Under the pieces are notes generated by a model. The model made no database searches. It was not told the origin of the DNA and worked only from the letters and a program-made list of their open reading frames with translations. 64,000 bases of DNA from Acinetobacter pittii ATCC 19004 = CIP 70.29 (GTDB lineage: Bacteria > Pseudomonadota > Gammaproteobacteria > Pseudomonadales > Moraxellaceae): NCBI RefSeq assembly GCF_000369045.1, contig NZ_KB849797.1, positions 526,132 to 590,131 on the forward strand. Reading direction: 5' to 3'. Every line of letters begins with the position of its first letter. The first letter of the stretch is position 1. Shown here one piece after another: positions 58,061 through 64,000 of this stretch. The position numbers were made by a program, and so were the translations under genes.

Positions 58061-58822
58061 TTAAGCAGTTTTTAAAAACTGGTTTCTATATTGTACAGGG
58101 GATAAACCTTGTAGCTTCACCTTGATTCTCTCATGATTATAATAATGAATGTACTCTCGTATAGTTTTCTCTAACTCATCAGTTGATTGAAATTTTTCAC
58201 CATGAAAGCACTCCGATTTTAATATTCCAAAGAAGCTTTCTATTACAGCATTATCTAAGCAATTTCCTTTACGAGACATACTTTGAATTAAACCATGTTG
58301 CTTTAATTGCTGTTGATAATGAGCCATTTGATATTGCCATCCTTGATCTGAATGGAGAATTGGTTTCTCATGTCGCTTAAGTTTAGCTAAAGCATGAATG
58401 AGCATATCTTTCACTAACTCATAATTGAGTTTACGTTGGATCCGGAAGGTAATAATTTCCCCATTAAATAAATCTATAATTGGTGATAGATAAAGTTTTT
58501 CACCGTTAACATTAAATTCCGTCACATCAGTTGCCCATTTCTGGTTGGGACGGTTCGCTTTAAATTGCCGTTGCATAATGTTATCGGCCACCATCCCGAC
58601 ACAACCACTTTTATATGAGCGATATTTTAGTGCTCTGATACGTGATTTAAGTCCCATAGTTTTCATAAGACGATATACACATTTATGGTTGATTATTATT
58701 CCTGTACTTTTCAGAGCAAGAGTAATTCTACGATAGCCATAGCATCCCTTATGCTTGTGATATATGGACTTGATCTGCTGTTTTAACTCAGTATATTTAT
58801 CCTTAGAGCGTACAGCTTTCAT
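58061..58822 (-). CDS. IS3-family transposase OrfB (DDE integrase)
   Basis: 253 residues from the first ATG, but expression is expected as an OrfAB fusion by -1 frameshift. The integrase core is intact: first Asp in WATDVTEFNVNGEKLYLSPIIDLF, second in LHSDQGWQYQMAHY, Glu in NCLDNAVIESFFGILKSE. HKGCYGYRRITLALK is the HTH_21-like start. Read back in its own frame it continues upstream to the slippery site at 58969-58975. Confidence 0.94.
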   Translation of the reverse strand: MKAVRSKDKYTELKQQIKSIYHKHKGCYGYRRITLALKSTGIIINHKCVYRLMKTMGLKSRIRALKYRSYKSGCVGMVADNIMQRQFKANRPNQKWATDVTEFNVNGEKLYLSPIIDLFNGEIITFRIQRKLNYELVKDMLIHALAKLKRHEKPILHSDQGWQYQMAHYQQQLKQHGLIQSMSRKGNCLDNAVIESFFGILKSECFHGEKFQSTDELEKTIREYIHYYNHERIKVKLQGLSPVQYRNQFLKTA

Positions 58823-58935
58823 GTGATAGAAATAAGTACTACGAGCGATCTTGGCAATACTGAGTAAGAGCTTTAATGGATAAATTTGCCTTAATTCTGA
58901 AATAACTTGAACACTGTCTGCAGTAGAAATTGAAT

Positions 58936-59454
58936 TTAGGTACGTTGCTTCAGTTTTAAGGCTTTTAGCTTTTTTAAAAAGGCAACCTCTGCTCGTAAAG
59001 CGGTCACTTCATCAATGAGCTCCTGCTGAGATTTATCTTTGTCATCTTTTACAGACTTGGTTATTTTAGTTTTATCTTGTTTAAGCATATTGGTATAAAT
59101 CCTCGTGGTATTAAACCCAGCAATCCCTTCTTTATGATACTGAGCTAGCCACCTTCTTAAAATTGACGTCCCGCTCAGATTTAACCGTCTTCTAACTTCT
59201 CTTACCGGTATCTTATCAAGAAGCATTTGTACAGCCTTGATTTTAAATTCGGAAGAGTAGTAGGTTTTTTTAGTTTTAACATTCAGGCCATCTTCACCTT
59301 GTGCCTTATAGTTTTCAATCCATAAGCGGATGGTTTGGAGATCTACATTAAATTCTTGTGAAAGGATTTTATATCCTTTACTTCCCTCTAAATAAGCTTG
59401 AATGACTTTTAATTTTAACTCTTTTGAATGCTTCGGAATTGGCATAGAGCACAC
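58936..59454 (-). CDS. IS3-family transposase OrfA (HTH protein)
   Basis: 172 residues with two HTH segments (LKVIQAYLEGSKGYKILSQEFNVDLQTIRLWIENYKAQGEDGL and a similar one after), followed by a leucine-zipper-like C-terminal part (ALRAEVAFLKKLKALKLKQ). The slippery heptamer A AAA AAG on the minus strand (58975-58969) lies in the FLKKL codons in the right frame for -1 slippage into OrfB. Frame analysis shows the -1 frame stays open into OrfB. Confidence 0.92.
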   Translation of the reverse strand: MCSMPIPKHSKELKLKVIQAYLEGSKGYKILSQEFNVDLQTIRLWIENYKAQGEDGLNVKTKKTYYSSEFKIKAVQMLLDKIPVREVRRRLNLSGTSILRRWLAQYHKEGIAGFNTTRIYTNMLKQDKTKITKSVKDDKDKSQQELIDEVTALRAEVAFLKKLKALKLKQRT

Positions 59455-60140: not shown

Positions 60141-60343
60141 GCGTTTGGCTTAGCTCTTTATCTCTGTGTTGCAATGGTTTATTACTTTAAATCAGCGCAA
60201 AAGATTAAAGTCTGTTGCGGCACAGGGGCCTAAAGTTGAATTCAAAATAATATATATCGAAAGCGATCTTGTACGTTTTTTCCTACAAGCTTTTAAGGAT
60301 TTTGCGGATTGGCGACACCCTGCTTTTTTCCTAATATGAACTC

Positions 60344-60473
60344 ATACAGGAACAGGATGTTCCGGAACACAAAACAACAATAATAGGTTCATGCACCAGG
60401 AGCGTGAGATACGACAGGAGTCATATCTAGCAACCAAATACGAAAAAGCTCGACAGGATGTCGGGCTTTTTTT
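60344..60473 (+). ncRNA. Small RNA gene, copy 1 of 3
   Basis: Promoter TTGGCG (60309-60314), 17 bp, TATAAT-like TAATAT (60332-60337). About 130 nt of RNA follow with hairpin GGAACA-GGA-TGTTCC and the terminator GCTCGACA-GGA-TGTCGGGC then T7. The block from 60271 on, promoter included, is nearly identical to copies at 61175 and 62356. No coding frame is conserved. Six GGA triplets are present, several in loops of hairpins. From memory, a multi-copy sRNA group with C4-like features has been reported in A. baumannii ATCC 17978; I could not check if this is it. Confidence 0.82.
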
Positions 60474-60505
60474 ATGTTCATTTAAAAACAACTTAAAGAA
60501 AATTC

Positions 60506-61015
60506 TTATATTGTTTTATGCACAACATACCTTTGAACTACTTGGTTGAGAGTAATTTCGGAATCAAGACGACCATTGTTTGCTTGAATAGTTTTTGCAG
60601 AAGCTAAATTAGATTTATAACAATGTATATGTAACTCCGTTAGGCCTAGCTTCCATGCCTCCTGAATTGTAAGCTCTAACAATTTCGAGCCAAAATTCTG
60701 TCCACGTTTAGAAGGACGAATACCTAAACCAATATGTCCACCACAATATTCAATCTGTTCATTGAGTTTAAGTCGCAAGTTAGACGCGCCAATAATTTCA
60801 TTATCCTCTACTAACCAATATGTAATGTTGGGAACATGCCCTTCTTCTAGGGATTCCCCATTTTCATAATCTCTCAGTTTATTCAAAAATGATTCAAAAT
60901 TTGTATGGTCAAACTCCGTTGTCAAAGGGTGACGATCTTCATCTGCCAATTCATTAATATAGTTGTTATAGCTCTCTTTAAACCTTAAATGAGGTTTTAC
61001 CAACATAACGGTCAT
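60506..61015 (-). CDS. GNAT-family N-acetyltransferase
   Basis: 169 residues. The acetyl-CoA-binding pyrophosphate loop reads IGLGIRPSKRGQNFGSKLLELTIQEAWKLG, the usual R/Q-x-x-G-x-G/A form, with ITYWLVEDNEIIGASNLR in front. Substrate unknown; resembles small-molecule or ribosomal-type acetyltransferases. The first sRNA gene converges with its 3' end. Confidence 0.9.
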   Translation of the reverse strand: MTVMLVKPHLRFKESYNNYINELADEDRHPLTTEFDHTNFESFLNKLRDYENGESLEEGHVPNITYWLVEDNEIIGASNLRLKLNEQIEYCGGHIGLGIRPSKRGQNFGSKLLELTIQEAWKLGLTELHIHCYKSNLASAKTIQANNGRLDSEITLNQVVQRYVVHKTI

Positions 61016-61247
61016 TTATTGATTACTCCCGATAAAATTGTTCTTTTTACAACCAAACTTAAACATAACATATTGTTATCAATAGCAACTCTTATACTTC
61101 TCAACATCTTAAATGATTAGGTATAAAAGTAAGCCCCCTCTGTAACTACAAAACGCCTCACACCATGTTTCAATGTACGTTTTATCCTACAAACTTTTAG
61201 GGATTTTGCGGATTGGCGACTTCCTTCTTTTTTCCTATGATGAGTTC

Positions 61248-61377
61248 ATACAGGAACAGGATGTTCCGGAACATAAAACAACAATAATAGGTTCAAGCAC
61301 CAGGAGCTTGAGATACGACAGGAGTCATATCTAGTACCCAAATACGAAAAAGCCCAACAGGATGTTGGGCTTTTTTT
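61248..61377 (+). ncRNA. Small RNA gene, copy 2 of 3
   Basis: Promoter TTGGCG (61213-61218), 17 bp, TATGAT (61236-61241). The same RNA as copy 1, with changes mainly outside the hairpins. In the terminator it reads GCCCAACA-GGA-TGTTGGGC, where both sides of the stem have changed from the CGACA/TGTCG of the other copies: a paired, compensating change. It ends just before the 3' end of the DUF4126 gene on the opposite strand. Confidence 0.82.
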
Positions 61378-61408
61378 ATTGCTGTTTAAAAATATGTTTA
61401 TGCTAAGC

Positions 61409-61984
61409 CTATAGAGGACTATGCGCCTGTTCTTGCTTTTTATGGCGGATCCAACGTACCGCTAAAATAATCGCAATCAGCACTACTACCGCAACAAGTG
61501 CAGGCACTAACATGGCCGAAACCGAAAGTAAGATCGCTCCAATCCACTCACCTGTCGCAACGACAAAATTCCCTAAACCACCCGTAGTTGCAGTTGAAAC
61601 ACCGCGTGCAGCAACGGTACTCATTTGCACCACACCTGCCGTACCACCGCCCACAATAATCGCTGCCGCCCAACTGGCAAACTGAGACATTTCTCCGCTA
61701 CTCACCGCCATTGTCGCTAATGTACCCGCAATCATCGCCGCAGGAGTCGCGACTGTGTCTAAGGCATTATCGACCCACGGAATATAGTAGGCTGCAACTT
61801 CACACACCGTTGCCACACCTAAAGCTAAACACACCGATGGCAGAGCTAACCATTCAAAACCTTTTGATGGTTCAAACCATCCCATCATGGTTGCAATGCT
61901 CATAACCAGTAGCGGCACAAACACGCGAAAACCGCAGGCAGCGCTCAGCCCCAAGCCAATACATAAACCCAATATTGTTTCCAT
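61409..61984 (-). CDS. DUF4126 membrane protein
   Basis: 191 residues with about five membrane segments, family start LGLCIGLGLSAACGFRVFVPLLVMS, and PWVDNALDTVATPAAMIAGTLATMAV. The C-terminus is short and basic (RWIRHKKQEQ). AAAGGAAA precedes the ATG. Function of the family is unknown. Confidence 0.87.
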   Translation of the reverse strand: METILGLCIGLGLSAACGFRVFVPLLVMSIATMMGWFEPSKGFEWLALPSVCLALGVATVCEVAAYYIPWVDNALDTVATPAAMIAGTLATMAVSSGEMSQFASWAAAIIVGGGTAGVVQMSTVAARGVSTATTGGLGNFVVATGEWIGAILLSVSAMLVPALVAVVVLIAIILAVRWIRHKKQEQAHSPL

Positions 61985-62044
61985 AACGGTTTCCTTTTCA
62001 TGCCCATCACGGGTCTTGTTATGTAAGTCTTATTTTTAAATTAA

Positions 62045-62078
62045 CAAAAAAGCCCCATCAGGTGACAGGGCTTTTTGT
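62045..62078. terminator. Terminator before the DUF4126 gene
   Basis: AAAAAGCCCCATCAGGTGAC-AGGGCTTTTT: stem AAAAAGCCC/GGGCTTTTT with a 13-base loop. It ends the zinc-ribbon gene transcript (leftward) and is bidirectional. Confidence 0.85.
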
Positions 62079-62107
62079 TAAATGCGAACGCAAATATTAT
62101 TTCATTC

Positions 62108-62242
62108 TTAACGTTTAAATTGCGTGCAGTAGCATTTCGTGCAAGGTGGTAAAGGGTCGGTATTAATTTCTAAAAACACTCTATGTCCGCACTGAGCACA
62201 GAAGTAGAAGCCTGTTCCGGGTTTTTCGCCAGCTGTTACCAT
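62108..62242 (-). CDS. 44-residue zinc-ribbon protein
   Basis: A gene below the usual size cut-off. The frame begins MVTAGEKPGTGFYFCAQCGH and ends CTKCYCTQFKR, with two cysteine pairs (FCAQCG and PPCTKC) that form a zinc-ribbon or rubredoxin-like knuckle. AGGAA lies 8 bases before the ATG and a terminator follows. Similar short zinc-ribbon proteins with the pattern GxYxCxxCGxxxxLxxxxPLPPCxxC are known in many proteobacteria. Role unknown. Confidence 0.85.
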   Translation of the reverse strand: MVTAGEKPGTGFYFCAQCGHRVFLEINTDPLPPCTKCYCTQFKR

Positions 62243-62428
62243 GATTACATTCCTATAATCGTATATATATTAAACAGGAATATAACCCACTTAAAGTGAA
62301 TGTCAATTGTCCATTTCGCCCGATGATGATGGCATAAATGCAAAAAATGTTATTTGTACGATTTATCTTACATAGATTTAGGGATTTAGCCGATTGGCTA
62401 TCCTCTGCTTTTTTTCTAATATGAACTC

Positions 62429-62558
62429 ATACAGGAACAGGATGTTCCGGAACACAAAACAACAATAATAGGTTCAAGCACCAGGAGCGTGAGATACGAC
62501 AGGAGTCATATCTAGCAACCAAATACGAAAAAGCCCGACAGGATGTCGGGCTTTTTTT
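62429..62558 (+). ncRNA. Small RNA gene, copy 3 of 3
   Basis: Promoter TTGGCT (62394-62399), 17 bp, TAATAT (62417-62422). RNA body nearly the same as copy 1; terminator GCCCGACA-GGA-TGTCGGGC then T7. It stops just before the 3' end of the opposite-strand gene at the right edge, as the other two copies also do for their neighbours. Confidence 0.82.
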
Positions 62559-62569
62559 ATGTTTTTATT

Positions 62570-64000
62570 TTATACAACATCTGTATCCCAGTTATAGAAA
62601 ACATCGTATTCATCTGCATATTTACTTATCGTATTTTGTATTACTCTACTAATTTCTTCATTAATATTTTCATTACTTCGAGTAAATATAAGAGTTCTAT
62701 CTATCATTAGTTCACCTTTATCAATCCTAAATTTATTTTTTGATATTTTCTCAGGTTTACCAATAATTGTTAGAATTGCTCCTATGGCATGACTACCTAA
62801 TCTGCAAAATATAGCCGAAGTCAAACTTGTTTTCTCAAATTCGAATATGTGATTACTGTCTACCTCACACTCGACTCTAAAATCACACTTATTTGTTTTA
62901 GTAATTATAGTATGGAACTGTTCAATTTCTTCTCTATAATTATATAACTCCTGAATAGAAATAAATATTTCATCATAAATTTTGCTTTGAAAACATATTT
63001 CTAATGCCTTGTTCAATAGATCATCAAATATACTTAGCTCTCTTTTTATAAATTTACTTTTAGATGAAGAAACTACAGTTTCAAAATTTTCTATGATTAG
63101 TTCAATAATGAATTCTTGGTTATCTCTGCTCATCAATTCAATTAAGCCAATAGCATCTTTTAGTTTCTTTAACTCAAATCTCCTATCGTCACCTAAGTTA
63201 AACTTATAATTAGATTGTTTTTTATATGGCTCAAAAGTCATATCAAAGAAATCGCCAACAACTCGAAATTTTGAAAATTTCCTAAACTCATTAAAACTAA
63301 AAGGTGAGTTATAAAAATCTATATCAAAAACTAAGCCAGTAGAGAGACTATCTTCTTTAAATCTAATTTTTCCTTTTTTTGGTGGTTGCACACTCAAACT
63401 TAGTTTTGCTTTAGGTATTTCAAAATTCGACTTTTTAGATGGGATACCAAATCGCTTTTCAATATTAACTAAGTTTTGGACATCTAAATCCTCTTCTAAT
63501 CCTAAAGAAACATCAATGATTCTCTGAATACCCTCTTCACCTTCAAGGGAAAATTGAACTGTTCCATACCCATCCTCAAAACCACACTCTTGTAAATATT
63601 TATTTTTACTAGCTATGTAATCAGAATAGTTTTCACCGATATATTTCAACAAATTTTGTTTTAGATTTTCCCCATCTAATTTTTCAAGTCTGTGCTGTTC
63701 ACTATAAGTAAGAGTAATTGTCTTTTTATTTAAATCCTTATTTTTTTCACTTTGTTCTATTTGATGAACTCTTTTAAGAATTTTATAAACCAACTCATTA
63801 TCTATATGTAAAACAAATGCATTTTGTGCTTCATTCTTCCCATCAAATTCTAGAAAAACGTAAAATGCTGGCATTTGCACAGTTGCCATCCGTCTAAGAT
63901 TTGATACTGTAATAGCGAGTTTTCTATCCTTTTTATCTGTTGCTTTAACTTGAACTTTACATTCAAAAGCTGATTTATGTAATTCATGAGTAGTTATATT
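62570..64000 (-). CDS. Protein of unknown function, running off the right edge
   Basis: The ATG-started frame covers 439 residues to 63889, but the same frame is open a further 37 codons to the edge at 64000, and those codons (with ...FECKVQVKATDKKDRKLAIT...) look coding. So the true start is outside the window. The protein is Lys/Glu/Asn-rich and soluble, with no membrane segment. The N-terminal VQVKATD...MPAFYVFLEFDGK pattern recalls nuclease-like or DUF4365-type proteins that use a QVK motif, but I cannot assign a family. AT-rich and apparently of accessory origin. Confidence 0.75.
   Translation of the reverse strand, partial: NITTHELHKSAFECKVQVKATDKKDRKLAITVSNLRRMATVQMPAFYVFLEFDGKNEAQNAFVLHIDNELVYKILKRVHQIEQSEKNKDLNKKTITLTYSEQHRLEKLDGENLKQNLLKYIGENYSDYIASKNKYLQECGFEDGYGTVQFSLEGEEGIQRIIDVSLGLEEDLDVQNLVNIEKRFGIPSKKSNFEIPKAKLSLSVQPPKKGKIRFKEDSLSTGLVFDIDFYNSPFSFNEFRKFSKFRVVGDFFDMTFEPYKKQSNYKFNLGDDRRFELKKLKDAIGLIELMSRDNQEFIIELIIENFETVVSSSKSKFIKRELSIFDDLLNKALEICFQSKIYDEIFISIQELYNYREEIEQFHTIITKTNKCDFRVECEVDSNHIFEFEKTSLTSAIFCRLGSHAIGAILTIIGKPEKISKNKFRIDKGELMIDRTLIFTRSNENINEEISRVIQNTISKYADEYDVFYNWDTDVV

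Follow-up and report, generated by a model that had tools for sequence, protein, structure and literature searches.

Each of the three repeated units in the window, the whole 64 kb stretch of Acinetobacter pittii DNA analysed here, very probably encodes a decoy RNA of the Csr/Rsm type that would be switched on by the Gac system and would sequester CsrA. This reading is drawn from sequence, because the predicted RNAs carry GGA loops and follow a GacA-type box. The family is genus-wide in Acinetobacter as judged from sequence matches, and related copies lie beside the pdif sites of plasmids.

Three repeated units in the window

Three direct repeats of ~205 bp each form putative transcription units that start at 60270, 61174 and 62355, and copies 2 and 3 each share 89% identity with copy 1 across 219 nt. 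This bears out an earlier note on this DNA, which had described three near-identical sRNA genes of about 205 bp with their terminators. All three units lie on the plus strand. Copy 1 consists of a GacA-type box (TGTACG-N6-CCTACA, 60270..60287), recognized by its sequence and kept in relatives, a -10 hexamer TAATAT (60332..60337) located 62 bp after the box start, and a predicted sRNA of ~131 nt including the terminator (60343..60473), with its start placed from the -10 hexamer. Copy 2 carries the same box (61174..61191), the -10 hexamer TATGAT (61236..61241) and a predicted sRNA at 61247..61377. Copy 3 has the box variant TGTACG-N6-CTTACA (62355..62372), the -10 hexamer TAATAT (62417..62422) and a predicted sRNA (62428..62558) with four GGA stem-loops, the last of which is the terminator. 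The paired change that had been claimed for the terminator stem is real: the stem reads CGAC/GTCG in copies 1 and 3 and CAAC/GTTG in copy 2. Upstream of copy 1, the minus strand holds two ORFs at 58061-59454 that resemble, by eye, an IS3-type transposase pair.

Every unit is followed by a convergent gene on the minus strand: at 60506..61015 after copy 1 (by eye, it looks like a GNAT acetyltransferase), at 61409..61984 after copy 2, and at 62570..63889 after copy 3. The units had been said to end directly at the 3' ends of these genes, which is nearly right, because the convergent 3' ends lie 32, 31 and 11 bp past the last terminator T of copies 1, 2 and 3, respectively. This arrangement bears on whether the unit could serve the next gene as a leader or attenuator, as the RelE/ParE-type toxin gene that follows in the same direction on some plasmids might suggest. 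Gene direction leads us to reject that explanation, to which we give almost no credence: all three window copies face a convergent neighbour, and the same holds on several plasmids.

Conserved GGA loops and the upstream box

The predicted fold of copy 3 is 5.2 s.d. better than those of 200 shuffles, none of which is as good (0/200). Each copy carries five CAGGA motifs per RNA (~135 nt), a number reached in 0 of 2000 dinucleotide shuffles, and a scan of the 64 kb on both strands (135-nt windows, step 5) found windows with five CAGGA confined to the three copies. The plain GGA count is mildly high, at 6 versus 3.2-3.4 in dinucleotide shuffles, 2.6-4.4% of which (0.026-0.044) reach it.

Conservation of the structure was assessed by aligning 43 copies from chromosomes and plasmids, after rows more than 97% alike had been removed. 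GGA is present in the loop of stems 1, 2, 3 and 4 in 41/43, 42/43, 36/43 and 42/43 sequences, respectively; all four loop GGAs are found in 32/43 sequences and three in 11/43. Both-sided changes occur in 12 of the 29 pairs, and double-sided cells number 52; shuffles give 12.1 and slid controls no more than 9. The pair count follows a structure drawn partly from one member's fold and thus carries a possible bias. Stem 2 shows no double-sided change among the 43 sequences, and RNAalifold, run unaided, predicts only stems 1 and 4. The proposal in the earlier note of a multi-copy sRNA family whose structure is under selection is supported by the excess of double-sided cells over shuffles in this 43-copy alignment.

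An unpaired stretch, AAAACAA, is conserved between stems 1 and 2. Together with the abundance of Hfq-dependent sRNAs described in A. baumannii (PMC12802169), it would suit RNAs that act by base-pairing and in which the GGA loops are incidental. We consider such a mode of action unlikely, given that the repeated conserved feature is the GGA in four loops and that GacA-controlled decoys would account for the box and its spacing. As to the preferred reading of a CsrA decoy, the ligand of CsrA/RsmE is described as a stem whose loop contains GGA; for RsmE, loops without the N of A(N)GGAX are reported to bind 10- to 1000-fold more weakly, this N-less form being that of two RsmZ stem-loops (PMC4005645). 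The loops of the Acinetobacter family are without this N, and a moderate CsrA affinity per site is therefore expected.

The promoter of each unit had been described as a -35/-10 pair, of which the -10 part stands and the -35 part does not. Among 59 non-redundant copies, taken only if they carry the box, conservation is 1.68 bits per position in the box arms and 1.58 in the -10 hexamer, versus 0.69 in the DNA between them and 0.76 in the hexamer that had been named as the -35. A sigma-70 -35 element is rejected as the driver on these values (0.76 versus 1.58 bits per position for the -10). The conserved upstream element, absent from the earlier note, is an 18-bp palindromic box with the consensus TGTA[C/A]G-N6-C..ACA; the palindrome taken for the GacA site reads TGTAAG-N6-CTTACA. 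The palindrome upstream of rsmX, rsmY and rsmZ is described as a potential GacA site (PMC2375449).

The box is present in 64 of 67 HMM hits, and the three boxless hits have one base changed, are cut by the record start, or are a fragment. Of the 64 boxed hits, 61 have the box start 62 bp from the -10 hexamer and 3 have it 61 bp away; these counts come from an HMM that itself covers the box, and the -10 was sought only 54-64 bp from it. The fairest test, free of the biases of requiring the box and of an HMM that spans it, used blast matches whose start lies past the box and looked at the 90 bp upstream of each, which gave 25 distinct stretches: 23/25 contain the box, and 25/25 do with one mismatch allowed, versus 1/5000 shuffles. 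A self-spreading repeat with no regulatory function might be expected from the many copies, plasmids included, and is nonetheless very improbable in view of the paired changes, the conserved box and spacing, and a repeated block in which neither a transposase nor terminal repeats were found.

The regulators that a CsrA decoy under Gac control would call for have candidates in this genome. It encodes a CsrA that scores above its model cut-off. A GacA-like regulator has UvrY/SirA/GacA as its best family, at 267.8 bits (12 bits under the cut-off of 280), and a GacS candidate matches the BarA model at 564.9 bits (cut-off 890), far ahead of the next match.

The RsmX/RsmY/RsmZ RNAs of Pseudomonas and the CsrB/CsrC RNAs of enterics are likewise short non-coding RNAs with several GGA stem-loops and an intrinsic terminator. 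The likeness extends to the upstream palindromic box taken for a GacA site (PMC2375449) and to the presence of several copies per genome. Unlike these RNAs, the Acinetobacter family is confined to its genus by model R1 and has related copies beside plasmid pdif sites. Also unlike them, it has no match to the Rfam models CsrB, CsrC, RsmX, RsmY or RsmZ up to E 10, and it is therefore not a member of those sequence families. No Rfam model reaches its gathering threshold within the three-copy cluster; the best match is AgrB at E 0.04, all matches up to E 10 score far under the gathering scores, and the C4 model (C4-like Group 1 sRNAs of A. baumannii) has no match in the cluster.

Copies across Acinetobacter and beside plasmid pdif sites

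The genome-wide copy count that had been suggested as a check gives seven matches at E <1e-12, namely the three window copies and C13:475318, C12:259879, C5:247276 and C8:1182. Contig C8 is 4548 bp long and, over its first 4455 bp (98%), matches an A. pittii plasmid record with 100% identity; therefore, this genome itself carries a plasmid copy. The family matches 110 of 119 Acinetobacter genomes by blastn, and in related genomes the window cluster numbers three or four copies. Model R1 matches 168 of 299 Moraxellaceae genomes at E <=1e-3; by our own count, 124 of these are Acinetobacter (123 of them at E <=1e-6) and 44 are other Moraxellaceae (best 1.2e-6). Two Acinetobacter are named among the genomes that R1 misses, and 111 further misses come without names. 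The out-of-genus matches are rejected because 12 sequences from six of these genomes contain the terminator only, with no box and 0-2 GGA; weak R1 matches within Acinetobacter may likewise be terminator-only. A phage origin is also rejected: 6 of 50,697 phage records match, all of them contigs labelled MD-2021a (CAKLQF02/CAKLQH02, Acinetobacter phage MD-2021a), which are likely bacterial DNA in a phage deposit.

By map position only, the family matches the Group 3 sRNAs of A. baumannii AB5075 (Weiss 2016, PMC5320573), with 4/4 loci in agreement in strand, order and approximate distance when positions are compared in two Acinetobacter genomes with long contigs. The distance from ssrA to ABUWs061 is 15,927 bp in AB5075 versus 15,968 and 15,446 bp in the two genomes; ABUWs005 lies at 236,876 versus 230,980 and 233,411; and ABUWs081 is separated from ABUWs083 by 97.8 kb versus 90.9-92.8 and 85.1-86.6 kb. 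Group 3 is reported with one transcript, ABUWs083, where the two compared genomes have the three-copy cluster, and with transcript sizes of 128-147 nt versus 117-130 nt for the family here. The Group 3 transcripts were seen by RNA-seq, and their function is described as not assignable by comparison (PMC5320573). The mention in the earlier note of a multi-copy sRNA group reported in A. baumannii was thus correct, and the group is, by map position, Group 3 rather than the larger, C4-like Group 1. Two RsmA-regulating sRNAs of 119 and 139 nt predicted in A. baylyi ADP1 (PMC5568370) share the functional class and the genus, and may belong to this family.

Plasmids are the second setting of the family. 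The RNA part of copy 3 matches 421 of 72,556 plasmid records, 400 of them from Acinetobacter. Three matching records of chromosome size (NZ_CP077849.1, NZ_CP104448.1 and NZ_CP064203.1, 3.7-4.1 Mb) hold the chromosomal sRNA cluster and are seemingly mislabelled chromosomes. OXA-24, OXA-72 and tet(39) plasmids are among those with a copy. Fifteen records were fetched, and leaving out two Klebsiella plasmids (broken or partial copies) and one chromosome-size record gave 12 Acinetobacter plasmids, hand-picked before pdif sites were looked at and mostly small and complete. Each of the 17 complete copies on these plasmids is preceded by a pdif site with no more than 2 mismatches, 203-240 bp before the box and with the XerC half facing the sRNA in every case (17/17), and none has a pdif site in the opposite orientation within 330 bp. 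Further pdif sites are present on most fetched plasmids, and L053 has one immediately downstream.

A search of 119 Acinetobacter genomes for the exact composite pdif-N210-240-box found 59 sites distributed over 39 of them, this genome included. As controls in the same 119 genomes, the composite read backwards gives 0 occurrences, and the version with the pdif site reversed is present in 0/119. The pdif pattern alone occurs 1224 times, so that the strict arrangement accounts for ~5% of pdif sites. Given the 17/17 linkage and the 59 sites in 39/119 genomes, pdif modules appear to include, as a recurrent end-piece, what its box and loops predict to be a GacA-driven CsrA decoy.

Two side observations concern individual plasmids. 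The Klebsiella sp. plasmid L050 and the K. pneumoniae plasmid L051 have broken or partial units beside a catalase gene, like the A. lwoffii plasmid L049, which suggests export of the module beyond Acinetobacter. On A. johnsonii pAcsw19-3 (L045), a ~7.7-kb plasmid unit is repeated several times, four of the repeats having the full sRNA unit; these repeats represent a multimer or an assembly effect.

The window copies differ from those on plasmids in their surroundings. No pdif-like site within 5 mismatches was found in the whole 64 kb; the best sites have 6 mismatches, and one of these, at 62248, lies upstream of copy 3 in the opposite orientation. The suggestion that the unit spreads or duplicates as a transcription unit is therefore borne out in part: the unit recurs with promoter and terminator beside plasmid pdif sites, but the window copies are without a pdif-like site within 5 mismatches. 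Nor is the family restricted to known mobile elements, a restriction named earlier as contrary to this view, because chromosomal copies without pdif exist.

The DNA between pdif and box, ~230 bp long, is conserved and non-coding and contains a two-way terminator-like hairpin (L042-L055, L080-L109); a TTATCCCCAATTTCTGCGGATAA-like inverted repeat is also seen in this spacer (L042-L055, L080-L109). At pdif-linked loci, the spacing has one cluster at 226 bp and another at 237-238 bp, a difference of roughly one helical turn. A link to pdif is present in 46/100 loci, which is not a rate, since loci were fetched for their match to the pdif pattern. Copies linked to pdif are poorer in GGA (mean 4.46 versus 5.59 without pdif) and tend to group in a tree built on ~205 bp, with 9 state changes versus a mean of 31.8 and a minimum of 24 in 200 label shuffles, four of the 46 pdif labels having unusual spacings. 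An HMM of the spacer detects it ahead of 61 sRNA hits, and 79 hits, mostly chromosomal, lack it; overlapping loci enter these counts more than once.

The spacer is perhaps Xer accessory DNA. Accessory DNA lies on the XerC side in cer and psi. The plasmid unit and its spacer could together serve as a cis-acting accessory sequence or insulator for Xer recombination at pdif, with an RNA that no longer acts on CsrA. We regard this as a minority possibility, less probable than the decoy reading though well ahead of the other alternatives. It would account for the near-fixed spacing, the single orientation to the XerC side, the conserved spacer with its hairpin and the lower GGA content of pdif copies; however, the plasmid copies retain the box, the -10 hexamer, the RNA stems and the terminator, and two spacer HMM hits have no adjoining sRNA.

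Predicted mechanism and meaning for Acinetobacter

Under the decoy reading, GacS would activate GacA, which would bind the palindromic box centred ~65 bp before the start, and the ~131-nt RNA would then be made. Its GGA loops would hold CsrA dimers, freeing CsrA-repressed mRNAs, and the dose would rise with every chromosomal and plasmid copy, of which this genome has seven, including one on a plasmid contig. Units of a diverged set, carried on plasmids at the XerC side of pdif, would contribute further decoy that also answers to the host GacA, so that the plasmid would amplify the host Gac signal rather than bypass it, with a decoy dose that follows plasmid copy number. We infer the binding of CsrA, the binding of GacA and the effect on the host. 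The broader proposal, that pdif modules spread a GacA-inducible CsrA decoy and that plasmids, including carbapenemase plasmids, thereby raise host Gac-Csr output with their copy number, is tentative, and we hold it with somewhat less than even confidence.

The dif (pdif) modules of Acinetobacter plasmids are described with 28-bp XerC/XerD sites on Rep_3-type plasmids, resistance genes being among the cargo (PMC13141974, PMC6449649). The main texts of PMC13141974, PMC6449649 and PMC11705084 do not contain the terms non-coding, noncoding, small RNA or intergenic, and the novelty of the present findings rests on the plasmid and pdif part, as judged among the matches listed from the open-licence literature. 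The plasmid-borne RsmQ of Pseudomonas offers a parallel, in that a plasmid likewise reaches into the host Csr/Rsm system; RsmQ is a CsrA-family protein (PMC9928087), whereas the Acinetobacter plasmid unit would be an RNA antagonist.

CsrA is described as essential for growth of A. baumannii on rich media (PMC12802169). Loss of GacS or GacA is reported to lower pAB3 transfer ~100-fold, GacS/GacA to raise small-plasmid mobilisation 10- to 100-fold, and GacA to bind the promoter fragments tested (PMC10746170); CsrA was not found in the main text of that report. GacA-driven CsrA decoys would, if true, fill the middle of the pathway from GacS/GacA to transfer and could bear on this reported dependence, a decoy role of the plasmid copies in transfer being a guess. 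The decoy reading would also give a function to sRNAs reported in 2016 without one. Finally, it would mean that resistance plasmids, with OXA-24, OXA-72 and tet(39) among the carriers, can bring with them a means to tune a global regulator of the host, an RNA-level form of host control by plasmids that would be the mirror image of plasmid-borne Rsm proteins.
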